NCBI RefSeq assembly: GCF_025698545.1
Contig: NC_068576.1
Span: forward strand, 57,448,094 to 57,512,093
Direction of reading: 5' to 3'
From: Gossypium raimondii
Taxonomy: Eukaryota; Streptophyta; Magnoliopsida; Malvales; Malvaceae
DNA length: 64,000 bases
Positions 4,853 to 57,069 of the stretch are shown one piece after another (the first letter of the stretch is position 1; each line of letters starts with the position of its first letter). The position numbers were made by a program, and so were the translations under genes. The notes under the pieces are model-generated. The model worked only from the letters and a program-made list of their open reading frames with translations. It was not told where the DNA came from and made no database searches.

Positions 4853-6899
4853 ATGAAAAGGAATCAATATCCCAACGAGATCATGAAACGATCCTCTTCT
4901 TCAAATTCCGAGACAATGACTCACTACGAGTCACCACACTCACCTTTACGACTCCATACCCATTTCCGATCCGACCAGGGCGATTCCGACAACAACACCT
5001 CCAATTATGCTTCCCCTGAAGCTTCCCCCGTTCCGCAGCACCCCGTCGTCGATAATTCGATGGCACTCATCGCTATCGACAAGTCAACTCAGCACAACGC
5101 TAATTCTTCTCCTACTACTCTTCCTTCTCCGCCGCTTCCTCCTAGTACTCCAGCGCAACAGTCATTGCATTTGACTATGAACCGCGCCGTGAGGGAGGAG
5201 GGACAGGGGGTGACGACGAAGACCAAAGTAAGTGGTGGTGCTGGAGGAGGGGGAGCGAGGGCAGAGGCGCTGAGGAGATCGAAGGTGTATCATACGGCGA
5301 CGAAGGCGGCTTTAGGGTTTCGATTAAGCGAAATCGTTTTGTGCTTGATTTCTTTCTCTGTTATGGCTGCTGATAAAACCCAAGGCTGGAGTGGTGACTC
5401 TTACGATCGCTATAAAGAATACAGGTGTTTTTTTTTTTTTGTTTATACTTTCTTAATTAAAATTCTCGAGACTTGCGCTTCATTGTGGGTCAAGTAGTTT
5501 TCTCCTTCCATTTATTTCTTATCGTCGTTTAGATTAATGCTTTACCCCTGTTTGACAATTTGTGTAAATTTCACAGATACTGTTTAGCAGTAAACGTGAT
5601 TGGATTTGTATATGCCGGATTTCAAGCCTATGATGTATCCTACTATCTCATGACACAAACGCATGTCATCCACCATTACCTTTTCCCGCCTTTCGAGTTC
5701 TTCATGGATCAGGCAAGTTTCCCTTAAATTAAATACGCTTATTTGCTAATTACTCAGCTTAGCTTCGTTCTTGGTTGTTCCCCGCTTGCACTTTTTTTCG
5801 GCGTAATCAAAGTTTATCTTATAATTTAGACCAACACAATGTTTTAATGACTTCTCCTTTAGGATGTTTCCCGTGCACCTTGTAGCTTATAGCTACCACA
5901 CTACTACTATATTTTGATAGACAATTAAGTGTTGTCCTACATTAGTTTATAGTGTAATTTATTATGGTCTCTATTTCATATACAACATCATACAATTAGC
6001 TGTGGATTTTGAGATTAAATTTTGAGGAGTCTAATTAAAAATTTTAAAATTTTAAAGAGTTTCATGAGATTTTTTTTTTTGAAAATTGAAGTTCCAATTT
6101 TAATTTTTAAAAATTGTGACATTAATAAGAATTTTGGAAAAAAATTTTCAAAACTTGGAGTTCCAGATTAAAATTCTCAACAAATTCCAAGGAAAAAAAA
6201 GAAGAAATTTTCGAAAAATTTTGGGGGAACCGACGCCCTCTTGGCCTCTATTAGGGTCGGCCCCTACGTGCAAAAATTAGTGTCTTCCAGTATTCTGTTT
6301 GGGCATAGGGTGCATTGGTCTCTCTATATCAGTGTAATTTCAGGCATGGTACGGTACTATTTTGCTCATAGGTTATGCAAATGGCTCTCTGTTTTGTGCA
6401 TAGGTTGCTTGTTCTCTCTAAATCAATGTAATTTCAGGCATGGACTCTTAATGGTTCTATTTTTGCGCATAGGTTAGGCATATGGCTCGTATGGTTCCAT
6501 TCTGGGAATAGGCTAGGCTTTTGGGCTTGTATGTTTTTCACATAGGTTAGGACTTCGGCATAATCTTCATTTTCATCATTTAGTTGGACAAGCTACATCA
6601 TAGATTTAGTGTAATAGATAAGATAGATGTGGGTCATTCGTATCGCTAGGACCGTACGAAATGCAAAAAAAAAATTGCAATTAATGAATTGGCTCATTTT
6701 GCAGATACTAGCCTATCTTTTGATTTCAGCATCATCAGCAGCAGCCACACGAGTGGACGATTGGCAATCTAACTGGGGGAAAGATGAGTTCACTGAGATG
6801 GCTAGTGCCTCAATTGCAATGGCCTTTTTGGCTTTCATTGCTTTTGCATTTAGCTCAATTATATCTGGTTTCAAACTCTGGACCCATCAAACTCCATGA
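4853..6899 (+). CDS. CASP-like protein, 4A type
   Basis: Three exons (4853-5424, 5577-5712, 6705-6899) give 300 residues. A Ser/Pro/Ala-rich cytosolic N-terminal region of about 150 residues precedes four predicted membrane segments: GFRLSEIVLCLISFSVMAA, YCLAVNVIGFVYAGFQAYD, QILAYLLISASSAAATR and a last one starting MASASIAMAFLAFIAFAF. This MARVEL-type four-helix fold, with an Arg near the start of helix 1 and an Asp-containing third helix, is that of CASP and CASP-like proteins, plasma-membrane scaffolds related to Casparian strip formation. Length and the long N-terminus fit subgroup 4A. The ATG at 4853 is the first in frame. Intron 2 has a GC donor (CAG|GCAAGT at 5713), supported by the frame and protein on both sides. 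The substrate or partner is not evident. Confidence 0.85.
6295..6560 (+). repeat. Degenerate tandem repeat in CASP-like intron 2
   Basis: Two units about 105 bp apart share 'gcatagg', 'tctctcta', 'atcagtgtaatttcaggcatgg' (in pieces) and 'ggttctatttt'-like blocks. Shorter echoes of 'cataggttaggc' continue to about 6550. Confidence 0.5.
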
Positions 6900-7439
6900 A
6901 ATCTCTCTGAGGCAAGTAATAGATTGTACTGAAATTACATTTAACAGTTGGGTTAAAACAACTTGAGTTGCGAATTCCTTTATTATTATTATTGTACAGA
7001 GAAGAACATACATAGCATGTTTTTCTTACAATTTTTTAACATACTGGATATGGAATTTCTTAATAGCAGATACCATTTTATTGTTGTCATAGAATTTGGT
7101 GTAGGGATAGAGAATCAAACACAAACAATTTTCAGTGTTGGGAGACACACCCATATATAGCTTAAAACCCATTTATTATCATAGGGAATGCATAGGATGA
7201 AAAAGAGCTGTTATTTTCTCAAAGCATCGAATTTTGTGTGTAAGGGATGAATTAGTTGAAGCTCAAACATCAAATTTTATTTTGATATCCATCTCTTCCA
7301 CTCACTCGAACCTCAAGAATCTAATCAGTTCTCTCTCGAAAAAAGAAGACAAACTTAACACACTGTTTATTTTTTTTGATTATTTTAGAGCAAACAAGCA
7401 AGTTCTCAGTTGCAGCAGATAAAGTAAATGAGACGACAG
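6900..7439. other. Intergenic, CASP-like 3' end to carbonic anhydrase A 3' end
   Basis: The two genes are convergent here. It holds the presumed 3' UTRs. No repeat or other gene is recognised. Confidence 0.4.
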
Positions 7440-7619
7440 TTAGAAAGGCTGGGGCATGGGTGGCAAGGGTGGAGCTGGTGTGAAGGCCCTCCATTGCTCA
7501 AAATGTCCATTAACAAAGTCGTAATAACCTCCTCTCAGTGCCAATTGTCCACTCGTCATAGCATCTCTCACATATGGATATGTCAGTAGATTTCCCAGTG
7601 AGTTATTCACTGATTCCTG

Positions 7620-7662
<43 letters not shown>

Positions 7663-10600
7663 CAAGTTGATTGATTTTCAACCTTTAATTTGGTAAAATT
7701 ACTGTATAGTCCCCTGTACTAAGAGTCAAATTACATTTTACTCCTACCCAACAAATGAGAAAATTAGTCTTTGTATGTTAGATCAAAAAGCAAATATCAA
7801 AAGTACCATTGAGGCTCCTATACTATGAGCAAAATTGCATTTGGTTCCCTCTACTCAAAAAATAAGTAAATTAATCCATCTATATATCAAATAGCAAATT
7901 GATCTATTTTGTTAAAATTTTTATCAATTTGTACTATTAAAAATTGGTGTTGTAGATAGAATAATCAGATAGTGACATGTGGTGTGTCATGCGTACTTCA
8001 TGTTGATGTACAGAGATTAGTTTTGAACGGTAGAAATAGAATAAATTTTTAATAAAAGGGCTAGCCTACTCTTTTATTTAATTTACAGGGATTAATTTGC
8101 CAATTTTTAGTAGAGGGGTAAAATGTAATTCAACTCCTAATTTAAGTGCCACCATGGTACTTTTACCAAGAGCAAATTAGTCATTTCTGTTAAAAATTTC
8201 ATCCATTTGTACCATTAAACATTGTCTTGTTATTTCATCCATTTGTATTGTGAAAAATTAACGTGAATGACAGAATAACCAAAAAATGGATGAATTTTTT
8301 AACAGAAGAATCAACTTATTCCTTTTTCTAATGTAAAAGGAATACATTACCTATTTTTTAAGTAAAAGAAATAAAATGCAATATTCCGACCCTTAATACA
8401 AGGTTGCCGGCTCTAATTTTACTCCCATAATTGCTATCAACATATCCATAGTTAATCAGCTTAAATTAATTTACCTTTTCGCAAAGCTTCAATTGTTCTT
8501 CAGAAGGCAGGCCACTATTTTCTTCCAGGACCTTTTTCTTTGCAGGCAAACCAATTTTCACCCAGTCATCTATGAAGTCACTGCAAATAAGCCCAAAAAA
8601 GGATTAAATATTTTATCCCACACATGATGGAATTTTCAGTAGAAGTACTATAGAAGTTTTTGTACTAGAAATCACATTACATTTCACCTATTTACTCAAA
8701 TTAAATATGAGTAAATAGATCAAAGACTAAATTAGTCCTTTTGTTAAAAAACATCCATATTTACCGTTAAAAACTTATTTGTATATATTAGCATAAGGTA
8801 CACGTGGCACACCATGTGTCATTGTTTGGTTTGCCATCCTAGTTTTTAACAATACAAATAGATAAAATTTTTAATAGAAAAGATCCATTTTACTTTTTGA
8901 TATGATGTATAGGAATTACTTTATCTATTTTAAAAAAAATGTAATCTAACCGTTAATATGAAGACTTGCACGATATTTTTACATGATATTTTTATAATTG
9001 ATTGATATATATATATATATGTGGCTTACTAAGTATGAGAATCAGAGTCATCTGGAAGATTCATAAGCCTCTCCACACCACCACAACGACTATGCCCAAT
9101 TACCAATATGTTACGTACCTGTGTAAACATAAAAAATGGGTCGTTTTATTTCTTCATTTTATTGCATAAAAAAAAAAAAACTCCCCTCTACACAATAATT
9201 ATATTGATCTTTATTTAATTACCTTAAGAGCTTTAATAGCATACTCAATGACTGCACCAGTCTCAGTGTGTCTTAGCTGTGCAAATCAACACACAAAAGC
9301 AGACTTTAAATTATAGCTGAAATTAGACTAGGATTTGGGGTTTGGGGGGAATTATAAGAACCTGGTCAAATGGAGGGACCATGTTGGCAATATTGCGAGA
9401 AACAAAGGCTCGGCCTGGCATCAAGTTGAAAATAGTCGAGGGGCTTACACGGGAATCCGAGCATGCAAACACCAAGTACTGATCACAGATTTATGGATTC
9501 ATTTAACAATTAATAATTGAGTTTAAAATTATTTTGAAACAAAAATGGAAACCGATAATATATATGATAAAAGTACCACAAAGGCATCTATATTAAGAGT
9601 TAATTTACATTTTATTCTCTTTACTTAAAAATAAGTAAATTAACCTTTTTACATTAAATAAAAAATAATTTGATCTTTCCGGTTAAAATTTTCATTAATT
9701 ATACTGTTAAAAATTAGTGTGGATAACAAAATAATTAGAAAGTAACACGTGACGTGCCAAATATACCTTATGCTAATGTAAAAGGGCTAGTTTTTAACAG
9801 GTGATTTTTTAAATAGAAAGATCAGTTTACTATTTGATATAACATATAAAAATTAATATCTCTATTTTTTCAATAGATGAAGCAAAGTACAATTTAACTC
9901 TTAATATAAATTCTTCAACTATACTTTTGCCTCTCTATATATATAGATACCCTGGGATGCTGGGCTTTTGCAAGTTGACTGAACAAATTAGGATGTTGGC
10001 TGCAAAAGAGAACATAAGAAATATTAGCAGTTATTATTGGTTATTCGAGGGTAACATAAGGGGCATGCAGAGGCTTTTGCTCTTTAGGTTAAATCATCAT
10101 TTGAGTTTGGCAAAAATATTATGAAAGTTAGTATGGCATGACATGTGTATCTTATTTTGACATATAAAGACTAGTTTTTAACAGTAAAAATGCATGAAAC
10201 TTTTAACAGAATGATTAGTTTGCTATTTGATCTAACATATAAAGATTAATTTACCCACTTTTAGATATTAAATGATTTTATTTAAGCCTTTTAGCTCTTA
10301 ATTAAATGGAAAAAAAATCCATTTTCAGTCCCTCTAAAAAAATAATAATGCATTGACCCCTCAAAAATTATAATTTTTATTTAGGTAAAATTTTTAACTT
10401 TCCCTAATATCTTACTCGAAAACGTTGATCTTAAAGGATTGAAAGCCATTGTAAAGCGTTTGAGCATCTTCGTCGGGAACGGGAAAAGGGATTCTCCCTT
10501 GGAGCTCAGCAATAAGCGTCTCTACTTTTCCTTGTACCTCCTCATCCAGCTTTACTTCCTCACTGCAACCCAACATATATATATATTTATATATCCACAG

Positions 10601-10724
10601 CTAAGTATACGTATGTATAACAATATGGAGCTATATATATGTGTGTGTGCGTGTATATATACCTGATGAGAATCTTCCTCAGTCCTTCAACAACAACATC
10701 AGCAGAATATTGCTTCTCAGCCAT
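7440..10724 (-). CDS. Beta-carbonic anhydrase, copy A
   Basis: Reversible hydration of CO2 to bicarbonate. Eight coding exons, read from the right: 10663-10724, 10416-10562, 9951-9999, 9362-9478, 9223-9276, 9030-9118, 8475-8580, 7440-7616; 266 codons plus stop, all GT-AG and in frame. Zinc ligands are visible: Cys of ACSDSRVS (exon 4, with the catalytic Asp-Arg pair) and His/Cys of GHSRCGG (exon 6). LLTYPYVR and [11 protein letters not shown] are the usual C-terminal blocks. It begins [19 protein letters not shown] with no transit peptide, so a cytosolic enzyme is likely. The protein ends in a Pro-rich tail ([14 protein letters not shown]) and lacks the longer C-terminal extension of many plant beta-CAs. 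Its introns 2, 3, 6 and 7 all carry MITE sequence, so it is the longest copy. It is the most divergent member of the four-gene array and supplied the 5' end of copy C. Confidence 0.9.
7620..7662. repeat. (CA)n(TA)n microsatellite at exon 8 acceptor of copy A
   Basis: About 7 CA units run into about 14 TA units, directly next to the minus-strand acceptor at 7617-7618. It forms part of the tract before exon 8 of copy A. Confidence 0.85.
7690..8430. mobile_element. MITE (GTAAAAGTACC family), outer copy split by a nested one
   Basis: The left part (7690-7798) begins GGTAAAATTACTGTATAGTC and the right part (about 8177-8430) ends with CTCTAATTTTACTCCC. Between them lies a complete second copy (7799-8176). 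The family's internal landmarks ('aaattagtc', 'gttaaaaattt', 'taacagaa') continue across the break. It sits in intron 7 of carbonic anhydrase A. Confidence 0.65.
7799..8176. mobile_element. MITE (GTAAAAGTACC family), inner nested copy
   Basis: The ends read AAAGTACCATTGAGGCTCC and, at the right, CACCATGGTACTTTTACC, an inverted pair. The flanks are AAGCAAAT on the left and GAGCAAAT on the right, a likely 8-9 bp target duplication with one mismatch. The body carries the family landmarks (GTTAAAAATT, GACATGTGGTGTGTCATG, TAATTTACAGGGA). No coding capacity. Confidence 0.7.
8640..8990. mobile_element. MITE (GTAAAAGTACC family) in intron 6 of copy A
   Basis: Begins near GTAGAAGTACTATAGAAG and ends near GCACGATATTTTTACATG. 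The internal block CACGTGGCACACCATGTGTC is the family signature. It is a diverged copy with no clear target duplication. Confidence 0.6.
9568..9933. mobile_element. MITE (GTAAAAGTACC family) in intron 3 of copy A
   Basis: Starts with GATAAAAGTACCACAAAGG and ends with CAACTATACTTTTGCCTC. Internal landmarks include AACACGTGACGTGCC and TTTTTAACAGG. It lies between exons 3 and 4 of carbonic anhydrase A. A further 3' fragment of the same family lies in intron 2 at about 10130-10260. Confidence 0.6.
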
Positions 10725-13582
10725 TTGTATATATGCTCTCTTTTTCAGGTTTCACACCAAAAGGTTCACAAAATTAGCGAATTACAATCAACTGTGGATA
10801 TTGGCATTAAGTTTTAGAGGGTGTAGTTAAAATTTTCAAAAATTATAATGGATTTAATGAGAATTTCAAGAAATCTTGGAGAGTCTGATTAAAATTTTCA
10901 AAACTTTGAAGAGCTTAATTGAACCAAAATCCCGAAAGACTTGATGAAAATTTTCAAAAAAATTCGAGGGGACCAAATTAAATTTTTTTAAGAAAATTAG
11001 GAGCCTATTGAAATTCTCCCATTAGCAGTAGCTGTTGGAGAAATATTAGGTGCATGCATAATCATAAAATATCACATAATAAATGAATTACAAAGACATG
11101 AAATATTGGTATTAGCTATGATAAACCAACTAACCTTTGAAGTTGAATTGGATATGTTTGATATTGCAGCTTCAGGCTTGTGGTATTTATAGGCTCTGTT
11201 GAGTTTTCTCTTTGAAAAATTGGTCACGTTTAAAATGACAATAACAATTTGTTTAGGTAAGAGAAGGAACAAATGAACACGTCTCTTCCTTTCGGATAAT
11301 TGCATGTAATAATATGTAGAAAGACAGAACATATAGTTTGGTCTGAAATGGAAATTATCCCAACTTATGGTCATATTTAACATCTTATTTGTGAATAAAC
11401 GTATTTGTTTATATGATTTTTTTTAAATCAAAAAATCTTTTTATGTTTTTTTTCTAATAATATTATTTATAAAGGTTTAACAAGAGCAAGGAGTAAAAAA
11501 AGAATAAAAATTGGGAATTTAAAGTGCAATTTTATCATACCTTAAAAACTAAATGGACTTTATAGGGACCAAGGCCACTACTTGCTCCTCTCCCTCCACC
11601 TCTGTAAAGGTTAAAATATGCTATAAGTTCCTATATTTATAAAAAATTTAAAATTCAGTCCTTATACTTTTAATTATGTGAATGTAGTCTATTTACTTTT
11701 CAGATTTTAAAATTTAGATCTAATTGTTAATACCTTAAAATTATCTTATTAAATTCAAGTTCATTATAATATCATTTTTAGTTACATACCTGCCAAGTGA
11801 GTATTCTTTTTTAAATTTCAAAATATCATCAATAAATTTAACAAGAAAAAATTTTACAATATTAACTAATTGAACTTGAAAGCAAAGAGGTTAAATTCTA
11901 AATTTATGAAAATTAAGTGATAGATTTTTATGACTATCTGCGAATAATTTTCTCCACAAACGAATAACATCAAAACGTAATGATAGACACGTTGAGAAGC
12001 TGCATCTCACTCCATAGATTATAGGTATGACATTGACTCATTGCAGTAGAAAACATGGATTCAGTGGCCTCGACAAACACCCTTATCTAAACTTGTATCA
12101 AAACCATTGGCTGCCATTTCTTCATTTCTTGTTTCACGTTTTTTATTTGTATAAATAATTATGATAATTATGTTTTTTTTATGAATTACAAATAAAAGTA
12201 AAGTCCGAATAATTAACATGATTAACACAATTCGAACTCAAATCACATTTAAGGCACTTAACTATCACATGAAATTCAGTTTATGTTTATTTAAAAGCAT
12301 TAATTAAGTTGATATTATTAATTAATTTAGAAATCTCCAAGAATTTTTAAACCTTTATAAAATAGTTAGTATTTAATATATTAGCAGCTAAATATTTTAA
12401 TTATACAAGCAGAAATCAGAATATTTGATATATTTACAGTACAAGCAAACTTATAAATTTATCATATATCTTATTTTGTTTATATATTGATCTACTAAAA
12501 TTTTTCTTTAAAATATTATACAAATCTTATTTTGAGTACTAGCTTTTTTATATTACAACTTTAAGGAGCGTTACTTTTAAACTCTACCGACAAATGTATC
12601 AATTTTTTATAAAACACTATAATTTTAATTATTAAACTTGATAGCTAAAATTATTTTAGTATCTCTAATTTTTATCAATTTTAATATTTGAACTTAAATT
12701 GCATCATGACATAAAAATTATATAAAATCTAAAAAAATTAGGCAATGACTTCAAATATCATCATAAACTTAATTACTAGATTAAGAAAAATTACATTAAT
12801 CCAATTATACAACAAGTTTGATTTATTTAAGCGTGATTATGTGTTTTCCAATGGAAAAAGTTGACCCATTTTCAATATTTTTAAGATAAATTAATTTAGA
12901 TTTATTATTTATTTATGGATAAACAAGCAATTATATATTTTGAACCAAAAAAAAGTTTGAAGAGATTATATATCACTAGAATCTTGACCCCGCGCAGCAT
13001 GTGTCTTGACTTGAAATCACTGATTGCGAATTCTATTTATAGTCCACACGTGCTAGGCACGATCTTGGTCAGAATAAAGAACTTTAAATTGGGTTTAATA
13101 CAGTTTAAATTTAAATTAAATAATTATAAACTAATTTAATATCAAAATTTTATTGTTAATACTTTCTTTTTTAGAACAGTAAAATATGACATTTGAGTAA
13201 ATTATATGAATGACTTATAGATGAAAAAATGAAATTAATATTTTAATATACCAGATTGAGTTGATACTTCAAATTTTGATTAAGAAAAACTATTAATTTA
13301 TCTACATATTATTGCATCTGAAATCAATGAACTTGGTACGTAAAAAATTATAAAATTATTTGCATGAATTGCGAGTAAAAAGAAAGTAAAATGAATTGCA
13401 GCATTAACAATGTCATAGGAGTACAATTTTATATTATTATTTTAGAAAAAACAAAAACACAACTGCATTAAAAAAAACGAAAAGGGAAAAAACTACAGAT
13501 AAATTATTGGTGGAGATGTAGTAAAGGAGACATTCTCAGTAGCTTAAATTAAATTTTAGATAATGCATGGGGCAAAAGGGCC
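10725..13582. other. Upstream of copy A and downstream of copy B
   Basis: 10725 to about 12730 is the 5' flank of A and matches 19492-21550 upstream of C. From the A-run at 12731 the sequence is the 3' flank of B and matches 16807-17640 and 21551-22430. A MITE-like block (about 11605-11960, starting GGTTAAAATATGCTATAAG) recurs at about 20385-20700. No other gene is seen; the short open frames are AT-rich chance products. Confidence 0.6.
11184..11192 (-). promoter_or_regulatory. TATA box of carbonic anhydrase A
   Basis: On the minus strand it reads CTATAAATA. The same box in the same context lies before C. A plausible 5'-UTR donor (AAAG|GTTAGT) follows near 11134, which would explain the 460 bp between TATA and ATG. 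Confidence 0.6.
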
Positions 13583-15686
13583 TTATTGTGGGTGGCATGG
13601 TTTGGTACACATCTTCCATTGCTCAAAATCTCCATTAACAAAATCATAGTAACCTCCTCTTAGTGTCAATGTTCCATTCACCACTGCACTCCTCACAAAC
13701 GGATACGTCAGTAGATTTCCCATCGAGTTCTTCACTGATTCCTGCATATATATATATGAAGTTAAATCTTAATTCGCTTTCAACGTAAACCACCTCAAAA
13801 TTTAAAAATATTAGTTTTTATACACCAAGTTGGTGCATGCCTCACAGGTTATACCTTTTCGCAAAGCGTTCTTTGTTGTTCAGGGGCACAGGTCACCAGC
13901 TTCTTCCAGTACCTTTTTCTTTGCTGGCAAACCAATTTTCACCCACTCATCAATGAAGTCACTGCACAATTCATCCAAAAGAAAATATTTTATATTTTGG
14001 TTAAAAATTGGTGGCTTTTTTCTTCATATTTAGCAATAACAGCTTACTATGTTTGAGTTTGATCTGGAAGACTCATAAGCCTCTTTATGCCACCACAACG
14101 GCTATGTCCCATTATCAATATGTTGTCCACCTGTAAATATAAATATGTGGTCGTGATCTTGTTCCTTTTTATTACATGACAAGAAAAATAGAATTGGTCT
14201 GTCACTGAGAAATGAAGATTTCATACCTGAAGTTCTTTAACTGCATACTCGATGACTGAACCAATTTCAGTGTGTCTCAACTGTGCAATAAGTATATATA
14301 AACAGGTTTAGCTTCCTAAGCAAATAAACCATAAGGTCTTTTAATGACTTAAAACTTGGTAAAAATATCAAAGAGTACTTTGTGCTAAGAACGGAATTGT
14401 ATTTTATCTCTCTATTGATAGATGAGAAAGCTAGTCAGAACAAGGAGTAAATTAATATTTCTGATAAAAATTTCATTTATTTTTACTGTTAAAAATCGGC
14501 AACTATACCTTAGCAAGAGTTACCGTGACACGCCATGTGTAACTGTCTGATTATTTAGTCATCTACACTAGTTTTTAACAATAAAAATGGATAAAATTTT
14601 TAAGAGGAATAATCAATTTATTTTTTAATCTAACATACTTAAAAAAAAAGAAAAAGGAAAAGGGGTAAAATATAATATGGCTGTTAGTGCAGGAACATTT
14701 ATGGTAATTTTACCCTTGAAATGGGGGGTATGGTACCTGGTCAAATTGAGGAACCATATTAGCAATATTGCGGCCGGCGAAGGCTTCTCCTGGTTTGAAA
14801 TTCAAAACGACTGAAGGGCTTACTCGTGAATCCGAGCATGAAATCACCAAGAACTGAAAAAAACAATGGATTCAATTTAATCATTGTTAAAGAAAAAAAA
14901 AACCTAGGAAAATTACCATTTTCATTGTCTATGATAGTATACCTTGGGATGCTGATCTTCTGCAAGTTTCTTGAAACATTCTCGGTTTTTGCTGCCCAAA
15001 AAACAATGCAGAAATTAGTGTGATTATCCGTTGGTGAGTTATTAGGGATGTAAGCTGGGAACATGTATACGTACTCAAATATGTTGGTCTTGAAGAAGTG
15101 AAAGCCATCGTCTAGCCTTTGAGCATCATGGTCACAAGGAGGAGGAGGAGGAGGATGATGATGATGCTCTCTGCCTTGGAGCTCGGCGATAAGCTTCTCA
15201 ACTTTGCTTTGAACCTTCTCATCCAGCTCTTCTTGGACACTGCAATCAACAAATGTATATATTATTGTTATTATTTACAGACACTGATCATATTGTTCTC
15301 CTGCTAAAAAAAAGTGATCGGTCTTGAGTGAGAGGAGAGGATGGAAAAGGAAGAAAATAGTTTTTTTTTTTTTCAAAAAAATTCCAAAGAACCGGTAAAA
15401 CGGATCGTCTTGACCGAAGACGAAGACCTGAGTCGTTGCCGTTGACAATCCAATGGTAAGATCCAATTGTTTAGAGATGGAGCAATAATAAATTATTAAT
15501 TGTAACACCTAACTCCTTAGTGACCGACCAATAATAAATTGTAAATAGGAGTACACTCTGGTTCATGTAAATTAACTCAAATAGTAACACACATGCTTCT
15601 ACAAATGAATAATTAATTAGAATAAATTACTTGAGGAGAATCTTCTTCAATCCTTCAACAACAACTTCAGCTGAATGCTTTGCCAT
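13583..15686 (-). pseudogene. Beta-carbonic anhydrase, copy B, frameshifted in exon 7
   Basis: Exons from the right: 15631-15686, 15075-15239, 14943-14991, 14737-14853, 14227-14280, 14048-14130, 13855-13961, 13583-13741. It encodes the same protein as D (start [31 protein letters not shown]) until exon 7, where the extra A at 13882 shifts the frame and gives TGA at 13880-13882, directly after the GDLCP codons. Exon 7 is 107 nt here, against 106 nt in A, C and D. The predicted product would lose the last helix and the [17 protein letters not shown] region needed for the fold, so the gene is probably dead as written. TATA, splice sites and exon 8 are all still intact, which means the lesion is either recent or an assembly error. 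A 5'-UTR intron is likely (15702-15890). Confidence 0.8.
14358..14715. mobile_element. MITE (GTAAAAGTACC family) in intron 4 of copy B
   Basis: Begins GGTAAAAATATCAAAGAG and ends GGTAATTTTACCC. The internal signature GTGACACGCCATGTGTAAC is present. The same insertion, at the same place, lies in C (18435-18785) and D (23228-23578), so it predates the duplications. Confidence 0.7.
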
Positions 15687-15975
15687 TTGGGCGCTTTCCT
15701 TCTAAAAAACATAAATATTTGAGTCAGCAAATTTTCACAAGCATGAGGAGGTTGGAGCAAGAGCAAGAAAGTTACTTGCATGCATGCATGCATGAAATTT
15801 GTACGTTCATGCAGCATATATACAGTTTTAAGAAGAAAAAAAAAACTTTAAAATCAAATATATATATCGATAAAAAAAACATCAACTAACCTTTTCCTAA
15901 AGATATTAGCTCTTAAACTTTTACGATAAAACAGGAAGATATGATGTTTGATGCAGTTCCAAAGGCACAGATATG

Positions 15976-15984
15976 CTATTTATA
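15976..15984 (-). promoter_or_regulatory. TATA box of carbonic anhydrase B
   Basis: Minus strand reads CCGCCTATAAATAGC. It lies about 90 bp before the putative 5'-UTR intron donor (AAAAG|GTTAGT, 15890). The acceptor TTTTTTAG|A lies at 15702, just before the ATG. Confidence 0.65.
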
Positions 15985-16802
15985 GGCGGAGTAGTTCAAG
16001 GGTTGTAAAAGAAGACATCATTCAAAGTAAAAAAGAAAAGTCGCTCTTTGTAATAAATAACTGTTGTCACACGGTTTTAGTGACACGGCAATTTACTTTT
16101 AGGTACAAAAGCTGACACCCCTTTGCCATTTTTTTTTTCACCAACAACCAATCTTGGAATTTTTTAAACCTAACCTTGTCACGATTTAATTGTTTTTTAA
16201 TTAACCTTTCCACTACGTCTTAAATTTCAATTTCAATCACAGATCATACTTGCTAAAAGTAATGAGCTTTGAACCAATTAATATTAATTTGAGGAAATAG
16301 CTGTAATTATTGGCATCAACTTTTAATTAAGAAAGAGTTATCAAACGTGCACTAACTAAAAGAAATTAAAATTTAAAAGTTGTAAAAGAATAAAGGACCA
16401 AAGATAAAATTATATATTTTTTCAAAAAAGCTCACGTTGATAAATTACCTATTATTTACTTGCAATGAAGAAATGTAGTAGTTGGTCGGTCTTTTCATAT
16501 TCATTTCTTTATCAATATAGAAGAATATTTGGTATTGAAATATGAAAGTTGATCTCCGCAACCATTTGTAATTAAAGCAATTATCAATATAGAGTTTGGA
16601 GTGCTATCCTTGACATTACTAGCTACGACTTTTGCTTATTAATGGTAATATAGGAAAAAGATTTTTATACTCTATAGTTTGGATACAGATGAAACATTGA
16701 AATCATCCAAGTCTAATATTATAAGCATGGGGGTGGTATACGTTGAATGAGAAAAGGTAACTTTTGACTGTCCGTGACTCCAAATTTCCACCTCTCAACT
16801 TT

Positions 16803-16815
16803 GGGGAAAAAAAAT
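16803..16815. other. Tandem duplication junction between B-type units
   Basis: Left of this A-run the sequence follows the 5' flank of D (at 25610-25620, which continues differently, into ATATACATGC). Right of it the sequence follows the B 3' flank (12731 onwards, ATTAGGCAATGAC). Shared sequence at the join is only the run of A's, about 7-8 bp. Confidence 0.7.
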
Positions 16816-17663
16816 TAGGCAATGACTTCAAATATCAGAATAACTTAATTACTAGATTAAGAAAAAAAATTATATTAATCCAAATATACAACAAGTTTGA
16901 ATTATTTAAGCATGATTATGTGTTTTCCAATGGAAAAAGTTGACCCATTTTCAAGATTTTTAAAATAAAATAAATTAATTTAGATTTATTATTTATTTTA
17001 AGGATAAACAAGCAATTATTTATTTTGAACCAAAAAAAAGTTTGAAGAAATTATATATCACTAGAATCTTGACCACGCGCAGCATGTGTCTTGACTTGAA
17101 ACCATTGATTGCAAATTCTATTTGTAGTCCACGTGCTAGGCACGATCTTGGTCAGAATAAAGAGCTTTAAATTGGGTTTAATTCAGTTTAAATTTAAATT
17201 AAATAATTATAAACTAATTTAATATCAAAATTTTATTGTTAATACTTTCTTTTTAGAACAGTAAAATATGATATTTGAGTAAATTATATGAATGACTTAT
17301 AGATGAAAAAGTGAAATTAATATTTTAATATACTAGATTGAATTGATACTTCAAATTTTGATTAAGAAAAACATTTAATTTATCTACATATTGTTGCATC
17401 TGAAATCAATGAACTTGGTACGTAAAAATTATAAAATTATTTGCATGAATTGCGAGTAAAAAGAAAGTAAAATGAATTGCAGCATTAACAATGTCATAGG
17501 AATACAATTTTATATTATTATTTTAGAAAAAACAAAAACACAACTGCATTAAAAAAAACGAAAAGGGAAAAAACTACAGATAAATTATTGGTGGAGATGT
17601 AGTAAAGGAGACATTCTCAGTAGCTTAAATTAAATTTCAGATAATGCATGGGGCAAAAGGGCC

Positions 17664-19491
17664 TTATTGTGGGTGGCATGGTTTGGTACACATCTTCCAT
17701 TGCTCAAAGTCTCCATTAACAAAATCATAGTAACCTCCTCTTAGTGTCAATGTTCCATTCACCACTGCACTCCTCACAAATGGATATGTGAGTAGATTTC
17801 CCATCGAGTTCTTCACTGATTCCTGCATATATATATATATAAATCTTAATTCGCTTTCAACGTAAACCACCTCAAAGTTTAAAAATATTAGTTTTTATAC
17901 ACTAAGTTGGTGCATGCCTAACAAGTTATACCTTTTCGCAAAGCGTTATTTGTTGTTCGCAAGGCAGGTCACCAGCTTCTTCCAGTACCTTTTTCTTTGC
18001 TGGCAAACCAATTTTCACCCACTCATCAATGAAGTCACTGCACAGTTCATCCAAAAATAAAATATTTTATATTTTGTTTAAAAATTGGTGGCTTTTTTTT
18101 CCTCATATTTAGCAATAATAGCTTACTATGTTTGAGTTTGATCTGGAAGACTCATAAGCCTCTTTATGCCACCACAACTGCTATGTCCCATTATCAATAT
18201 GTTGTCCACCTGTGAAATATAAATAGTGGTCGTCTTGTTGCTTTTTATTACATGACAAGAAAAATTGAACTGGTATGTCACTGAGAAATGAAGATTTCAT
18301 ACCTGAAGTTCTTTAACTGCATACTCGATGACTGAACCAATTTCAGTGTGTCTCAACTGTGCAATAAGTATATATAAACAGGTAATTAGCTTCCTAAGCA
18401 AATAAACCATAAGGTCTTTTAATGACTTAAAACTTGGTAAAAATATTATAGAGTACTTTGTGCTAAGAATTGAATTACATTTTCTCTCTCTATTGAAAGA
18501 TATTGAGAAAACTAGTAACAAGGAGCAAATTAATATTTCTGTAAAAATTTCATTTATTTTTATAGTTAAAATCGACAACTATATGTTAGCAAGAGTTACC
18601 ATGGCACGCCATGTGTAACTATCTGATTTTTTAGTCATCTACACTAATTTTTAACAATAAAAATGGATGAAATTTTTAAGAGTAATAATCAATTTATTTT
18701 TTAATCTAGCATACTTTAAAAAAAATGAAAAGCCGTAAAATATAATATGGCTGTTCGTGCAGGAACATTTATAGCAATTTTACCCCTGAAATGGAGGGTA
18801 TGGGAAATTAATTACCTGGTCAAATTGAGGAACCATATTAGCAATATTGCGGCCGGCGAAGGCTTCTCCTGGTTTGAAATTCAAAACGACTGAAGGGCTT
18901 ACTCGCGAATCCGAGCACGAAATCACCAAAAACTGAAAAAAATAATGGATTCAATTTAATCATTGTTAAAGAAGAAAAAAAAACCTAGGAAAATTACCAT
19001 TTTCATTGTCTATGATAGATTGATAGTATACCTTGGGATGCTGAGCTTCTGCAAGTTTCTCGAAACATTCTCGGTTTTTGCTGCCCAAAAAAGAATGCAG
19101 AAATTAGTGTGATTATCCGTTGGTGAGTTATTAGAGATGTAAGCTGGGAACATGTATATACGTACTCAAATATGTTGGTCTTGAAGAAGTGAAAGCCATC
19201 GTCAAGCCTTTGAGCATCATGGTCACAAGGGGGATGATGATGATGCTCTCTGCCTTGGAGCTCGGCGATAAGCTTCTCAACTTTGCTTTGAACCTCCTCA
19301 TCCAGCCTTACTTCCTCACTGCAACCCAATATATATATATATATATCCACAGCTAAGTATACGTATGTATAACAATGGAGCTATATATGTGTGTGTGTGC
19401 GTGAAATGAAATGGAGAGTCTATATATACCTGATGAGAATCTTCCTCAGTCCTTCAACAACAACATCAGCAGAATATTGCTTCTCAGCCAT
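17664..19491 (-). CDS. Beta-carbonic anhydrase, copy C (A/B chimera)
   Basis: Exons from the right: 19430-19491, 19166-19318, 19032-19080, 18816-18932, 18303-18356, 18127-18209, 17932-18037, 17664-17822; 260 codons plus stop, all in frame. Zinc and catalytic motifs are ISCSDSRVS and GHSSCGG (Ser in place of the Arg found in A, B and D). Exon 1 ([20 protein letters not shown]) and the first 23 bases of exon 2 are those of A. From exon 2 base 28 onwards, including intron 4 with its MITE and the C-terminus [11 protein letters not shown], it is B/D-type. The mature protein is therefore B-like in its catalytic body but under the A-type promoter. The exon 2 insert is shorter than in B and D (His4-Pro2 rather than His4-Pro6). 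No transit peptide; a cytosolic location is inferred. Confidence 0.9.
18435..18785. mobile_element. MITE (GTAAAAGTACC family) in intron 4 of copy C
   Basis: Orthologous insertion to those in B and D. Begins GGTAAAAATATTATAGAG and ends GCAATTTTACCCC. It differs from the other two by several substitutions, whereas B and D are almost identical. Confidence 0.7.
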
Positions 19492-22450
19492 TTGTATATA
19501 TGCTCTCTTTTTCAGGTTTCACACCAAAAAGTTCACCAAATTAGCGAATTAGAATTAACTCTGAATCTTGGCATTAAGTTTTAGAGGGTTTAGTTAAAAT
19601 TTTCAAAAATTATAATGGACTTAATGAGAATTTCAAGAAATCTTGGACAATCTAATTAAATATTCAAAACTTTGAAGAGCTTAATTGAAAATTTCCAAAA
19701 TCCCGAAGGACTTGATGAAAATTTTCAAAAAATTCAAGGGGACCAAATTAAGAGCAATATTATTGCATGAAATAGATGTAGGTGCATGCATAATCATAAA
19801 ATATCATATAAGAAATGAATCAAAAAGAAATGAAATATTGGTATTAGCTATAATAAACCAACTAACCTTCGAAGTTGAATTGGATAATATAAAAGCTTGT
19901 ATGTGTATGTTTGATGCAGCTTCAGGCTTGTGGTATTTATAGGCTGATGAGTTTTCTCTTTGAAAAATTTGGTCACGTTTAATATGACAATAAAAATGTA
20001 TTTAGGTAAGAGAAGGAACAAATGAACACGTCTCTTCCTTCCAGATATAATTGCATGTGGAATATGTAGAAAGAGAGTGAAAGATATAGTTTGGTCTGAA
20101 AATGGAAATTATCCCCAACTTATAGTCATATTTATTAATAAATGTATTTGTTTATATGATTTTTTTTAAAATCAAAAATATTTTTATGTTTCTTTTTCTA
20201 ATAATATTATTTATAAAGCTTTAACTATAAAGGCTAGAAAATTGTTTTAGGGAGTAAAAGAATATAAAATTGGGAGTTTAAAGTGCAATTTTATCATATT
20301 AACTTATGATTTTTAAAACTAAATGGACTCTATAAGGACCAAGGCCACTACCTGCTCCTCTCCCTCCATCTCTGTAAAGGTTAAAATATGCTATAAGTTC
20401 CTGCATTCATAAAAATTTAAAATTCAGTCATTGTACTTTTAATTATATGAATGTAGTCTATTTACTTTTAGATTTTAAAATTTAGATCTAACTGTTGATA
20501 CGTTAAAATTATCTTGTTAACTTCAAGTTCATTATAATATTAATTTTTAGTTACATACCTACCAAATGAGTTTTATTTTATTTTAAAATAAGTTTAGAAT
20601 ATTAACTAATTAAATTTAAAATTTAAAAATTAGAAAGTAAAGAGGTTAAATTCTAAATTTATGAAAATTAAGAGGTAGATTTTATGAAGATGCAAGTGTA
20701 TATCTGCGAATAATTTTCTCTAAAAACGAATAACATCATAAATCACAAAACTGAATAATAGACACGTTGATAAACTGCATCATACTCAATGGATTATAGG
20801 TATGACATTGACTAATTGCAGTTAAAAACATGGATTTAATGGCCTCGAGAAACACGCTTTTCTAAACTTGTATCAAAACCATGTGCTGCCATTTCTTCAT
20901 TTCTTGTTTCACGTTAATAATTGTGATAAGATTGGAATTTATATATGATTTTGAACTTCATTAGTTGATTTATGTTTTTCTTTTTTTATGATACAAATAA
21001 AAGTAAGGTCCGAACAATTAACATGCTTAATGCAATTGAACTTTACTATCACATGAAATTTAATTTATGTTTATTTAAAAGCATTAATTAAGTTGATATT
21101 ATTAATTAATTTAGAAATCACTAAGAATTTTTAAATCTTTATAAAATAGTTAGTATTTAATATATTAGCAGCTAAATATTTTAATTATACAAGCAGAAAT
21201 CAAAATATTTGATATATTTACAGTACAAGCAAACTTATAAATTTATCATATATCTTATTTTGTTTATATATATTTTTACATATATATTGATCTACTCAAA
21301 ATTTTTCTTTAAAATATTATCACAAATCTTGTTTTGATCGTACTTGCTTTTTTTTATACTACAACTTTAAGGAGCGTTACTTTTAAACTCTACCGATAAA
21401 TGTACCGATTTTTATAAAATATATAGGGTCACTATAATTTTAATTATTAAACTTGATAGCTAAAATTATTTTAGTATCTCTAATTTTTTATCAATTTTAA
21501 TATTTGAACTTAAATTGCGTTAACATGACATAAAAATTTATATAAAATCTAAAAAAATTAGGCAATGACTTCAAATATCATAATAAACATAATTATTAGA
21601 TTAAGAAAAAATTACATTAATCCAAATATACAACAAGTTTGATTTATTTAAGCATGATTATGCGTTTTCCAATGAAAAAGTTGACCCATTTTCAATATTT
21701 TTAAAATAAATTAATTTGGATTTATTATTTATTTAAGGATAAATAAGCAATTATATATTTTGAACCAAAAAGAAGTTTGAAGAAATTATATATCACTAGA
21801 ATCTTGACCCCGAGCAGCATGTGTCTTGACTTGAAACCACATTTATTGCGACCGTATATTGGAAACAATAACAACGTCCACGTGCTAGGCACGATCTTGG
21901 TCAGAATAAAGAACTTTAAATTGAGTTTAATTCAGTTTAAATTTAAATTAAATAATTATAAACTAATTTAATGTCAAAATTTTATTGTTAATATTTAATA
22001 CTTTCTTTTTAGAACAGTAAAATATGATATTTGAGTAAACATTTACATACATATATTATATAATTTGAGTAAATTATATGAATGACTTATAGATGAAAAA
22101 GTGAAATTAATATTTTTAATATATTAGATTGAATTGATATTTCAAAATTTGATTAAGAAAAACTATTAATTTATCTACATATTATTGCATCTGAAATCAA
22201 TGAACTTGGTACGTAAAAATTATAAAATTATTTGCATGAATTGCGAGTAAAAGAAAGTAAAATGAATTGCAGCATTAACAATGTCATAGGAGTACAATTT
22301 TATATTATTATTTTAGAAAAACAAAAACACAACTGCATTAAAAAAACGAAAAGGGAAAAACTACAGATAAATTATTGGTGGAGATGTAGTAAAGGAGACA
22401 TTCTCAGTAGCTTAAATTAAATTTTAGATAATGCATGGGGCAAAAGGGCC
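19492..22450. other. Upstream of copy C and downstream of copy D
   Basis: 19492 to about 21550 is A-type 5' flank, matching 10725-12730. From the A-run near 21551 the sequence is B-type 3' flank. Contains the repeat block at about 20385-20700. No other gene is seen. Confidence 0.6.
19934..19942 (-). promoter_or_regulatory. TATA box of carbonic anhydrase C
   Basis: Minus strand reads CTATAAATA, in the same context as the A promoter (TTCAGGCTTGTGG on the plus strand). This supports an A-type promoter for the chimera. Confidence 0.6.
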
Positions 22451-24549
22451 TTATTGTGGGTGGCATGGTTTGGTACACATCTTCCATTGCTCAAAATCTC
22501 CATTAACAAAATCATAGTAACCTCCTCTTAGTGTCAATGTTCCATTCACCACTGCACTCCTCACAAACGGATACGTCAGTAGATTTCCCATCGAGTTCTT
22601 CACTGATTCCTGCATATATATATATGAAGTTAAATCTTAATTCGCTTTCAACGTAAACCACCTCAAAATTTAAAAATATTAGTTTTTATACACCAAGTTG
22701 GTGCATGCCTCACAGGTTATACCTTTTCGCAAAGCGTTCTTTGTTGTTCGGGGCACAGGTCACCAGCTTCTTCCAGTACCTTTTTCTTTGCTGGCAAACC
22801 AATTTTCACCCACTCATCAATGAAGTCACTGCACAATTCATCCAAAAAGAAAATATTTTATATTTTGGTTAAAAATTGGTGGCTTTTTTTTCTTCATATT
22901 TAGCAATAACAGCTTACTATGTTTGAGTTTGATCTGGAAGACTCATAAGCCTCTTTATGCCACCACAACGGCTATGTCCCATTATCAATATGTTGTCCAC
23001 CTGTAAATATAAATATGTGGTCGTGATCTTGTTCCTTTTTATTACATGACAAGAAAAATAGAATTGGTCTGTCACTGAGAAATGAAGATTTCATACCTGA
23101 AGTTCTTTAACTGCATACTCGATGACTGAACCAATTTCAGTGTGTCTCAACTGTGCAATAAGTATATATAAACAGGTTTAGCTTCCTAAGCAAATAAACC
23201 ATAAGGTCTTTTAATGACTTAAAACTTGGTAAAAATATCAAAGAGTACTTTGTGCTAAGAACGGAATTGTATTTTATCTCTCTATTGATAGATGAGAAAG
23301 CTAGTCAGAACAAGGAGTAAATTAATATTTCTGATAAAAATTTCATTTATTTTTACTGTTAAAAATCGGCAACTATACCTTAGCAAGAGTTACCGTGACA
23401 CGCCATGTGTAACTGTCTGATTATTTAGTCATCTACACTAGTTTTAACAATAAAATGGATAAAATTTTAAGAGGAATAATCAATTTATTTTTAATCTAAC
23501 ATACTTAAAAAAAAGAAAAGGAAAAGGGTAAAATATAATATGGCTGTTAGTGCAGGAACATTTATGGTAATTTTACCCTTGAAATGGGGGGTATGGTACC
23601 TGGTCAAATTGAGGAACCATATTAGCAATATTGCGGCCGGCGAAGGCTTCTCCTGGTTTGAAATTCAAAACGACTGAAGGGCTTACTCGTGAATCCGAGC
23701 ATGAAATCACCAAGAACTGAAAAAAACAATGGATTCAATTTAATCATTGTTAAAGAAAAAAAAAACCTAGGAAAATTACCATTTTCATTGTCTATGATAG
23801 TATACCTTGGGATGCTGATCTTCTGCAAGTTTCTTGAAACATTCTCGGTTTTTGCTGCCCAAAAAACAATGCAGAAATTAGTGTGATTATCCGTTGGTGA
23901 GTTATTAGGGATGTAAGCTGGGAACATGTATACGTACTCAAATATGTTGGTCTTGAAGAAGTGAAAGCCATCGTCTAGCCTTTGAGCATCATGGTCACAA
24001 GGAGGAGGAGGAGGAGGATGATGATGATGCTCTCTGCCTTGGAGCTCGGCGATAAGCTTCTCAACTTTGCTTTGAACCTTCTCATCCAGCTCTTCTTGGA
24101 CACTGCAATCAACATATGTATATATTATTGTTATTATTTACAGACACTGATCATATTGTTCTCCTGCTAAAAAAAAGTGATCGGTCTTGAGAGAGAGGAG
24201 AGGATGGAAAAGGAAGAAAATAGTTTTTTTTTTTTTCAAAAAAATTCCAAAGAACCGGTAAAACGGATCGTCTTGACCGAAGACGAAGACCTGAGTCGTT
24301 GCCGTTGACAATCCAATGGTAAGATCCAATTGTTTAGAGATAGAGCAATAATAAATTATTAATTGTAACACCTAACTCCTTAGTGACCGACCAATAATAA
24401 ATTGTAAATAGGAGTACACTCTGGTTCATGTAAATTAACTCAAATAGTAACACACATGCTTCTACAAATGAATAATTAATTAGAATAAATTACTTGAGGA
24501 GAATCTTCTTCAATCCTTCAACAACAACTTCAGCTGAATGCTTTGCCAT
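22451..24549 (-). CDS. Beta-carbonic anhydrase, copy D
   Basis: Exons from the right: 24494-24549, 23938-24102, 23806-23854, 23600-23716, 23097-23150, 22918-23000, 22723-22828, 22451-22609; 262 codons plus stop. Start [18 protein letters not shown], no transit peptide. Zinc ligands are Cys in ISCSDSRVS and His/Cys in IMGHSRCGG. The ending is [17 protein letters not shown] followed by MCTKPCHPQ. Exon 2 carries an unusual [11 protein letters not shown] insert encoded by a CAT/CCT microsatellite. This is the intact counterpart of copy B. Exon sequence is almost the same, but non-coding homopolymers are often one base shorter in D. It is likely cytosolic. Family role: CO2/bicarbonate exchange for carbon and pH balance. 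Confidence 0.9.
23228..23578. mobile_element. MITE (GTAAAAGTACC family) in intron 4 of copy D
   Basis: Same insertion as in B and C. In its right half (23440-23530) seven successive homopolymers are each one base shorter than in B. Confidence 0.7.
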
Positions 24550-26236
24550 TTGGACGCTTTCCTTCTAAAAAACATAAATATTTGAGTCAGCAAATTTTCA
24601 CAAGCATGAGGAGGTTGGAGCAAGAGCAAGAAAGTTACTTGCATGCATGCATGCATGAAATTTGTACGTTCATGCAACATATATACAGTTTTAAGAAGAA
24701 AAAAAACCTTAAAACATCAACTAACCTTTTCCTAAAGATCTTAGCTCTTAAACTTTTACGATAAAGCAGGAAGATATAATGTTTGATGCAGTTCCAAAGG
24801 CACAGGTCTGCTATTTATAGGCGGAGTACTTCAAGGGTTGTAATAAAAGACATCATTGAAAGTAGAAAAGAAAAGTCGCTCTTTGTAATAAATAACTGTT
24901 GTAACACGGTTTTAGTGACACGGCAATTTACTTTTAGATACAAAAGCTAGCACGCCTTTGCCTTTTTTTTTTTTTTATCCACAGCCAACCTTGGAATTTT
25001 ATAAACCTAACCTTGTCACGATTTAATTGTTTTTTAATTAACCTTCCCATTATGTCTTAATTTTCAATTTCAGCCACAGATCATACTTGCTAAAAGTAAT
25101 GAGCTTTGAATCAATAAATATTAATTTGAGGAAATGGCTTTAGTTATTGGCATCAACTTTTTAATTAAGAAAGAGTTATCAAACGTGCACTAACTAAAAG
25201 AAATTAAAATTTAAAAGTTTAAAAAGAATAAAGGACCAAAGATAAAATTATATTTAAAAAAAAAAAAGCTCACGTTGATAAATTACCTATTATTTACTTG
25301 CAATGAAGAAATGTAGTAGTTGGTCAGTCATTTTCATGGTATTGAAATATGAAAGCTGATGGTCTCCGCAACTAATTGTAAGTCATTAGCAATTACATAA
25401 CAGTAGTTTGGAGTGACTATCCTTAACATTACCACGAGGTGAGTCTTGACTTTTGCTTATTAACGGTAATATAGGAAAAAGATTTTTATACTCTATATGA
25501 AACATTGAAATCATCCAAGGTACGTCTAATATTATAAGCATGGAGGTGGTATACGTTGAATGAGAAAAGGTATTGACCGTCCGTGACTCCAAATTTCCAC
25601 CTCTCAACTTTGGGGGAAAAAAATATACATGCATGTGGACGTGGTAAATTCTTGACCTTTTGTCAATAAGTGCCAACTACCACCTGAAACACAATGTAAA
25701 TGCATCCCCTCATTTTTATTTAAAACTATTTTCTTATGTGCTTGATACATCAATTATTTTGCGCCGAGGGATGTTTATATTTATGGTTCTACTCATAATT
25801 TCAATATAACTTATTTTAAAAAATAAAATATAGATGGATCTAAAAACTATATGACTTAATTATTTAATTATAGACATGGGAAACTTAAATATTTATAATT
25901 TTTTGTCATTAATACATTTTAATATGATGTTAATTAATCAAAGAGGAAAAAATTAGATTTAAATATTGAAAACGATATATTATTTAAGAGGACAATCACA
26001 AATTTCAAAAATAGACAAAAAAATCGACATAAATAATTAAAATTTCACTTCATTGTTATCTCTTTTCTTATTCATTTCATTTCAACCTATTTTTTCTTTC
26101 ATATCTCCACATTTCATCCTCCTAATCTCTATAGTTAATTTGTTACTTTTATGTGATTTTAATGTTCTTTTTATCTTTTGTAACAAATAAAATTCAAACT
26201 CTTGGGGTGCAGTTAAACATCAAATCAAATTATTTT
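24550..26236. other. Upstream of copy D and intergenic
   Basis: Matches the 5' flank of B up to about 25620, then unique AT-rich DNA. No gene is recognised. Confidence 0.5.
24812..24820 (-). promoter_or_regulatory. TATA box of carbonic anhydrase D
   Basis: Minus strand reads CCGCCTATAAATAGC, the same as in B. A 5'-UTR intron donor (AAAAG|GTTAGT) follows near 24726. Confidence 0.65.
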
Positions 26237-54258: not shown

Positions 54259-57069
54259 CAATTGTAAAACACTAACCCAACAACAGCGCGAAACCAGATA
54301 TAACAAAGGCACCAAAAGAGCTCTATTACAGAAAATGTAAGAGAGAGACAGAGAGTGAATGAAGGGAATGGTTTGTCAGGGAAAGGGGGAGGGAGGCTGT
54401 GAATATAAAGGAACAAAAAGGCACGAATACTGTATCCAGTACACTGTAGAGTATATAGGAGAGTATCTTTTGTGTGTGTTGTATTCGTATATTAATTTTA
54501 TCTTATAGATTTTGAACTAAGGGATGATGATGATAGGAGATTATAGGGTGAAGAAGATTGTTTATAAAATGGTAGTCGTCGGTGAGCTGAAACAAAATAT
54601 TTGATGGACCCACGGTGCCATCCAAATCGGAGGACATAGGGTCCACTGATCCTTGACTAATACTCAGGCAAACGAAGGGTTGTGATGTCACCAGGGTCGT
54701 CTTGTTGGGACAACCTGAGCCGTGTAAATACAGGGTTTAGAGCACGTCAGAAATATCGGCAGTGGGCGTCACACTAAGTTATGTCTTAATTTAGAACCCA
54801 GGCTTTGTAAGAGAATTATATTAATATTAATTAATTTTTTATTAGTGGGTTTTTCAATAAAGAAGGGGGAAGGGCATACCGAAAGAGCACTCCACATGAG
54901 GGGCCCAATATCGAGTGGGCCCCCCTCACTCTCCTCCTACAAGCAAAGAATCAATTCGCTGCTGCTCGTCCCCACCTTGTCACGTGCTTCCCCTCTAATG
55001 GCTTAAATTTATTATTTTATTACAATTTAGTCCCTAGTGGATTTTGCTATCCATCCATCTCCCTTGCTCCACTTCGGCCAATTACTACAATAATAACCCA
55101 AGGTTAGATTAATGTTTAGATATGTAGTCTGAATAAATGTTTAAAATACAATAAGCCTAATGCATGATTTTTTTGGGGGGGGGGGGGGTTGAGTGATCTC
55201 AAATGATTGCTTCAATTTTGGCAAATATAAATTGTATCATTTCAGTCACCAATCTCTGAAATAAGAGATGAAAGATAGACAGATAGAATGAATACTTTTC
55301 CCCATATACTCAGCTGAAATGAAAATTCTACCAGGCAAGCTGGCAGGCAAAGCTACAACACTTGATTGCTAGCTACAAAATGAGTCATTAGATTCTTTAA
55401 GCATCCAGTATTTTTTATATCGTTTATGAAAATTAATTTTTCTTTTTAAATTTTGTAACTATCCCTTCCAGTTGAAATCCCATTTTTCTTCTTTAAAATG
55501 TAATACACTTATTGATTTGGAGCATCTAACTAGCTTGAGGATCACACTCTCGGGCAGAACATGAGGGCCCAAAAGTACAAACTGTCAGGTGCATAAGTGC
55601 TCTCTATGCCCCACGTTCCGCCCCTAAACCTACACAGTTCCTTGAACTCAGTTCAGTAAAATTCATGATTAATTTCCCTTTAGCCTTCAAACCTTTTCCT
55701 CTTTTTTCGTGGTTCAGGAAAACAATGATCTCCCAATGATATATCCCAAGGGCGCAGTAACCAATCATTTGTTAACTCATTAACTAGCTAATTTCATGAT
55801 GCTTGGTGTTGAATTCTTAAAAATTTGGGTCAAATATGCTAAAATTAAGAAATCATTTGGCCACAATCCCATCTCGAATTTATATTCGAATATGTATTAA
55901 ATATATAAATGTGGGAAGGGAAGGAAATGATAGTGGACCTTCCAGATTTTGTATGTCATAGGTCTGAGTTGTCTTAATTTGTTGCCTGATGGTGACCCAA
56001 AAAACAAAGTCTCGATCTCAATTGGTAGCTTTAAACATGGATGAAGACGTTGTAATTAGCTGCTTCTTTTGTAGGAAAAAAACATTTGGAATAAAGAGTA
56101 ACTATGCATGTATGGGTCGTTGTCTAATTTTTCCCGGTTTACCAAAACAAAACGATGGGGGGCATATTAATACGAAAAAAAACGACAAGCATTTGTATCT
56201 ATTTATTTATTTCATGTGAAATACAATATTTCGAAGTTGAATATGCATGCTTGCATATAGTGCAAAAACACGTACTTTTTTTTTTTTTTGTATGTTTTCA
56301 GCCTTTAATCTTCAAACTAAAAGTTGAAAAAAAGCCATTTTGTTGCTTTGGTGTTTAAATTAAGAATAAATATATATAATTTTTATAGCACATTTGTAAC
56401 TAAAAAAAGATTTTCATGTCATAAACTTTAAACTAAAATTAAGCATTTCAAGTTTATATGTATATTGGCACATTTAATTCAATAATAATAAATCATACAA
56501 TCAATGGGGTTTTATTCATGAATTGAAATTAACATACTTTTGGTTCAAAATGATTCCCGATTTTGATCAAAGTAAACTAAATGCCAAAAAGAGAAAGGTG
56601 AAAGAAATAAAAATGGAGTTTGAGCTTCAGCTTCAGCTTCAGCTTCACGGTACCGCCACACCACATCTTGAATCAGTTCTTGTTTTGCTTTTATTTTCTT
56701 TTTAAAGATCAGCCTAAAGTTGAGGAAAAAGCCATTAAAATTCACCCCTCGAGCTCTCATTTAATTTCAAAAAGTTCTCTTATTATTATTAATATTCTTT
56801 TTTTATCTGAAGGGCTTCTTTTCTTTATGCATCTCTCCCCTTTACCTTTTGGAAAAAAAAATAAACACTTATTGAATAGCTATTAAATTATATTTCTCAG
56901 TAAACAACATCATTACACGTACACCCTAGCTATTACAAAAGACAACAACATTATCATCTTATATCTTTGTCCAGCATCAAAGTTGAACAGCCCCGCCCAA
57001 GAAAAAACAAAAATGAGGGACTCAATTGATCGAACATTGTCCATTGTCCAAAAGCATGCGTACGACATA
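54259..57069. other. Dof promoter and intergenic DNA
   Basis: Contains a run of 14 G at 55175-55188 and a (GCTTCA)n-like stretch at 56625-56648. A CT/GA-rich leader lies near 54330-54400. No other gene is recognised. Confidence 0.45.
54451..54459 (-). promoter_or_regulatory. Possible TATA box of Dof gene
   Basis: Minus strand reads CCTATATAC, about 195 bp before the ATG. Confidence 0.4.

Follow-up and report, generated by a model that had tools for sequence, protein, structure and literature searches.

A chimeric gene, C, was found among four tandem beta-carbonic anhydrase genes (A, B, C and D) in a 64,000-nucleotide window of the Gossypium raimondii genome (contig NC_068576.1, positions 57,448,094 to 57,512,093). 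The initial annotation of this DNA had described C as a recombinant whose two parts meet in frame within exon 2. Site typing and the open reading frame support this description: C is confirmed as a genuine recombinant, in which the type of gene A gives way, inside exon 2, to the type shared by genes B and D. This chimeric gene very probably arose from unequal exchange within the tandem array.

The array and the exon-2 switch of gene C

The four genes lie on the minus strand, span positions 7440-24549 and were each modelled with eight exons and GT-AG introns. Gene A (7440-10724), which has the type of the 5' part of C, contains a 266-aa open frame. Gene D (22451-24549), of the B/D type, contains an open frame of 262 aa. 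Gene C itself (17664-19491) is open for 260 aa, with residues 1-29 of A type and the following residues B/D-like. Gene B (13583-15686) is a copy of D with an extra base in exon 7 (around 13882) relative to C and D, which shifts the frame and leads to a premature stop; the remainder of B is almost identical to D. This frameshift had been overlooked in the initial annotation. B is a broken copy and presumed pseudogene, probably a recent one, with an assembly error around 13882 as the alternative. The two parental types, A and B/D, are neighbours in the same orientation, and the synteny of their flanks is concordant. A second tandem duplication was noted elsewhere in the window (57069-58302 and 61616-62831, 93.8% identity over 1246 columns).

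Exon 2 of C was placed by the gene model at 19318-19166 on the minus strand. The two diagnostic bases reported initially were reproduced: at exon-2 position 23 (19296), A has G, B/D have A and C has G, and at position 28 (19291), A has A, B/D have T and C has T. When all sites distinguishing A from B/D were typed in exons 1 and 2 of C, 15 of 15 were of A type down to 19296, and 26 of 28 were of B/D type from 19291 onwards through the rest of exon 2 (Fisher P = 9e-10). A smooth divergence without a switch, the profile against which the initial annotation had set its claim, is ruled out by this typing. The two A-type exceptions past the switch lie at 19231, within a loosely aligned proline-codon repeat, and at 19204, a plain site. 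The switch thus falls at 19292-19295 (minus strand, codons 29-30), in agreement with the breakpoint of about 5 bp given before. This narrow confinement depends on the single site 19296, without which the interval extends to 19307, just short of the neighbouring A-type site at 19308. Its edge may also have been shifted slightly by later gene conversion between A and C, since the two genes are nearly identical next to the switch and about 10% diverged farther upstream.

The exons on either side follow the same division. Exon 1 shows no difference between A and C (0/62) and nine between C and B/D (9/56), whereas over the 568 aligned bases of exons 3-8 C shows 16 differences from D and 125 from A. 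The reading frame and the splice phases are intact across the switch, with GT-AG at all seven introns of C, as the claim of a preserved frame implied. The body, formerly called B-type, is better described as B/D-type, because mutual homogenisation has left B and D indistinguishable as its source.

Intron 4 gives a further marker of the B/D type. This intron is 449-459 bp long in B, C and D (18357-18815 on the minus strand in C) and 85 bp in A, so that the presence in C of the B/D intron-4 element was upheld. The extra DNA belongs to a dispersed repeat with inverted self-similarity. With 40 of 1078 candidates in the genome scored, at least 65 matches were listed, and these were spread over every contig from C1 to C13; this putative element may reasonably be called a MITE. 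Several pieces of the same repeat family were also seen in introns 2, 3, 6 and 7 of A (7617-10415).

Upstream of the switch, the intergenic and promoter DNA, exon 1 and intron 1 of C (19319-21545, minus strand) align to A at 10563-12730. Over the 2 kb tested 5' of the ATG, C aligns with A with 186 substitutions in 1909 aligned bases. The initial assignment of exon 1, intron 1 and 2 kb of upstream DNA to A type is therefore correct as to kind, with the qualification that the upstream part is about 10% diverged and not identical. Collinearity with the DNA upstream of A extends over 6.3 kb, through the next gene. On the other side, the 3' flank of C is of the B/D kind as far as a T run at 16807-16814, and downstream C differs from B at 86 bases in 1601 and from D at 89 in 1600 (5.5%). 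An A-like promoter ahead of a B-like enzyme, as first suggested for C, is thus borne out by upstream DNA that aligns with A and a body that aligns with B/D. A dispersed repeat, matched in part on many contigs, was observed between a TATA-like box of C and its ATG (about 19562-19751).

All four genes carry the active-site sequence CSDSR; the second site reads HSRC in A, B and D but HSSC in C, and HSAC in the solved pea beta-carbonic anhydrase 1ekj. CxDxR and HxxC are the names of the active-site motifs of beta-carbonic anhydrases. A comparison of A and C with the Pfam profile Pro_CA (PF00484) gave 144.5 bits for C (residues 90-246, 4.1e-42) and 146.5 bits for A, for a cut-off of 25.7, and residues 53-251 of C align to 1ekj (E 8.9e-72). 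The 29 A-type residues of C are covered neither by the Pfam match nor by the 1ekj alignment, so B/D-like catalysis would be expected of C. Judged from sequence, C probably encodes a beta-carbonic anhydrase that is B/D-like in its catalysis and would be produced wherever the A-type promoter is active. Some features of the coding sequence are worth recording. Exon 6 of C (18127-18209) encodes Ser156 within HxxC, at a residue that is Arg in A, B and D and Ala in 1ekj. Exon 2 of C (19166-19318), like that of B and D, contains a run of His codons followed by the proline-codon repeat, and C has four prolines fewer there than B/D.

Duplicated blocks, junctions and near-identical patches

The switch coincides with one end of a duplication of 6.3 kb that accompanied the exchange. 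Block 1 (10535-16805, minus strand) contains the 5' part of A exon 2, the A promoter, the 3' flank of B, gene B and its promoter. Block 2 (19291-25618, minus strand) is collinear with it and contains the 5' part of C exon 2, the C promoter, the 3' flank of D, gene D and its promoter. Identity between the blocks drops to 47% just beyond the end of the B promoter and to 60% past their exon-2 end, at the switch. Between the two blocks lie the body and 3' flank of C, a copy of the body and 3' flank of the B/D type. This arrangement implies a second junction, where the B/D-kind 3' flank of C is joined to the promoter of B, and a run of eight T is found there (16807-16814, minus strand). T runs are also present at both source sites (21551-21557 and 25617-25623). 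The exon-2 switch adjoins one of the two longest words shared by A and D in this exon (11 bp). Within the first 71 bases of the exon, however, A and D now show 15 differences; this is poor homology for ordinary crossing-over and counts against such an exchange.

Three patches in the array are much more similar than their surroundings. Genes B and D differ by only eight substitutions in 2318 positions over 13488-15813 (minus strand; partner about 22356-24676), for 72 differences in 915 bases upstream of this 2.3-kb tract and 41 in 732 downstream. Such a pattern is as expected of a gene-conversion tract that would cover nearly the whole gene, and this homogenisation over 2.3 kb, with flanks that differ by 6-8%, had been overlooked. 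Also overlooked was a 188-bp patch close to the switch, in which A (10575-10762, minus strand) and C (about 19331-19529) differ by one substitution in 182; it ends about 36 bp from the switch, and farther upstream the two differ at 186 of 1876 positions. The longest identical A/C run is 123 bp (permutation P 0.001), and when the patch is delimited slightly differently, 2 of its 130 non-coding bases differ (P 0.0005). This patch was chosen post hoc and is partly coding, and other identical A/C runs of 109 and 88 bp occur near 12420-12702, at the far upstream end; we consider it less certain than the B/D tract. The third patch lies around and past the stop codon, where C (about 17409-17708) and B (about 13327-13627) show 2 differences in 299, and is likely another product of conversion.

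Outside the near-identical patches, distances amount to 9.9% for A/C, 7.9% for B/D upstream and 5.6% for B/D downstream. The divergence classes of the duplicated flanks are heterogeneous (P 7e-7), and this unevenness leaves one simultaneous duplication without clean support. Its source could be conversion in patches, or an alignment that is loose where the DNA is AT-rich. The array is a mosaic of histories. Because C, and B together with D, differ in history along their length, trees built from whole genes of this family would mislead.

Probable origin of gene C and direction of the exchange

Silent divergence was compared on the two sides of the switch. Between A and D, dS is 0.32 before the switch and 0.59 after it (rounded counts 4/17 and 61/149, P 0.20). 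C shows no change from A at 18.5 synonymous sites before the switch, and after it differs from D with a dS of 0.073 and a dN of 0.015. A and D are therefore old relatives on both sides, and C is young relative to A on one side and to D on the other, so that a single recombination, in C, suffices. The dN/dS ratio of about 0.2, which covers the C and D lineages together, indicates that the C/D body has been under selection since the split. At silent rates usual for cotton, a dS of 0.073 would put the exchange before the split of the A and D genomes, which we give as a lead only. A silent distance between these two genomes was looked for in passages of PMC7203013 and not found, so this age depends on the rate assumed.

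The promoter, exon 1, intron 1 and first 23-27 bases of exon 2 of C are of the A type and the rest is of the B/D type. According to the most probable scenario, the same history would have copied the stretch from A exon 2 to the B promoter, giving the order A-B-C-D. Two junctions would be needed, namely a short-homology join at the T run and the exon-2 exchange beside the 11-bp shared word. The order A-B-C-D could be reached by two unequal exchanges in succession, or by a single replication-based event in which the template was switched backwards twice. Afterwards, gene conversion would have made B and D alike along almost the full length of the gene, and probably also A and C in the surroundings of exon 1; B would also have acquired its frameshift. 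From comparison of the present sequences we infer unequal crossing-over in preference to copying with template switches, conversion as the cause of the patches, and the order of these events.

The single-event variant is a possibility to which we give a minor share. It holds that the array began as two genes, A and one of B/D type, and gained all four in one replication-based event; its two backward template switches would have used short homologies, the 7-8 base T run (16807-16814) and the site in exon 2 beside the 11-bp word. If so, the template switch in exon 2 would have made the in-frame chimera C together with the gain in copy number.

It is unlikely that C acquired its body by conversion after a plain duplication. 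On that account, a pair [A,B] would have been duplicated to [A,B][A',D], and the body of A' then lost to a long conversion tract from B or D that started in exon 2. The collinearity of blocks 1 and 2 would fit such a course, as would the conversion-like patches seen in the array (2.3 kb between B and D, the A/C patch, and about 300 bp between B and C). The tract, however, must run from exon 2 to about 0.85 kb beyond the stop codon and end at the T-run junction with the B promoter. It must also have left no match to the 3' flank of A: this flank (5500-7439) had no match within 12500-25700, where one would have favoured conversion. An extra step is needed as well, whereas unequal exchange yields the same arrangement without it.

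Still less probable is a history in which C is the older form and recombination produced A or the B/D type. At least seven other PF00484 loci were found in the genome (34 candidates scored), matching in pieces of at most 64% identity; one locus covers exons 1-2, at 27-31% (about 1.5 kb on either side). These loci give no outgroup for exon 1, so that the direction of the exchange rests on parsimony, which leaves some room for an older C. Against it, A and D diverged long ago both 5' and 3' of the switch, and two recombinations would be needed instead of one.

A mis-join of A and B/D read-paths during assembly is very improbable: the near-identity of B and D over 2.3 kb makes the locus hard for short reads, but C differs from A upstream (186/1876) and from both B (86/1601) and D (89/1600) downstream, and these substitutions of its own on both sides rule out a concatenation of present-day A and B/D. 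The genome searches point the same way. With 19280-20400 as the query, C and A were the only full-length matches among the 45 listed (40 of 101 candidates scored), the other 43 being partial, and no second copy of the 5' region of C was found among them. The exon 2-4 region of C (18850-19350) had five matches in the genome, the four array genes and, on another contig, a single distant carbonic anhydrase exon, with no further copy found.

Comparison with known systems

Among the papers listed in literature searches, with most subscription papers outside their scope, none had a title that dealt with this array or with a chimeric cotton carbonic anhydrase. The array offers a clear, internally controlled case in which a single exchange would have equipped an enzyme gene with another promoter and another N-terminus at once, and in which homogenisation later reached a gene yet spared its flanks. 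Intact A, C and D would allow promoter effects to be separated from protein effects.

Fusion genes of the Lepore and anti-Lepore type arise by unequal crossing-over in tandem arrays. Like them, C is an in-frame fusion of the 5' and 3' parts of neighbouring paralogues and is accompanied by a change in copy number. Unlike them, its parental types differ at 15 of 71 bases by the exchange site, and conversion-like patches overlie the array. The closest precedent that we have seen is the F locus of cucumber, where an extra copy of CsACS1 (CsACS1G) carries a recombinant distal promoter (PMC7072070). There too, a tandem duplication in a plant was accompanied by a recombination that gave the extra copy a different promoter. 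The coding sequence of CsACS1G is unchanged and its new distal promoter comes from another gene, BCAT (PMC7072070), whereas C switches inside an exon, between paralogues. C is thus a clear case of a known kind, a chimera made by unequal exchange in a tandem array and overlaid by gene conversion, and the splicing together of neighbouring genes is an ordinary route by which gene clusters make new genes.
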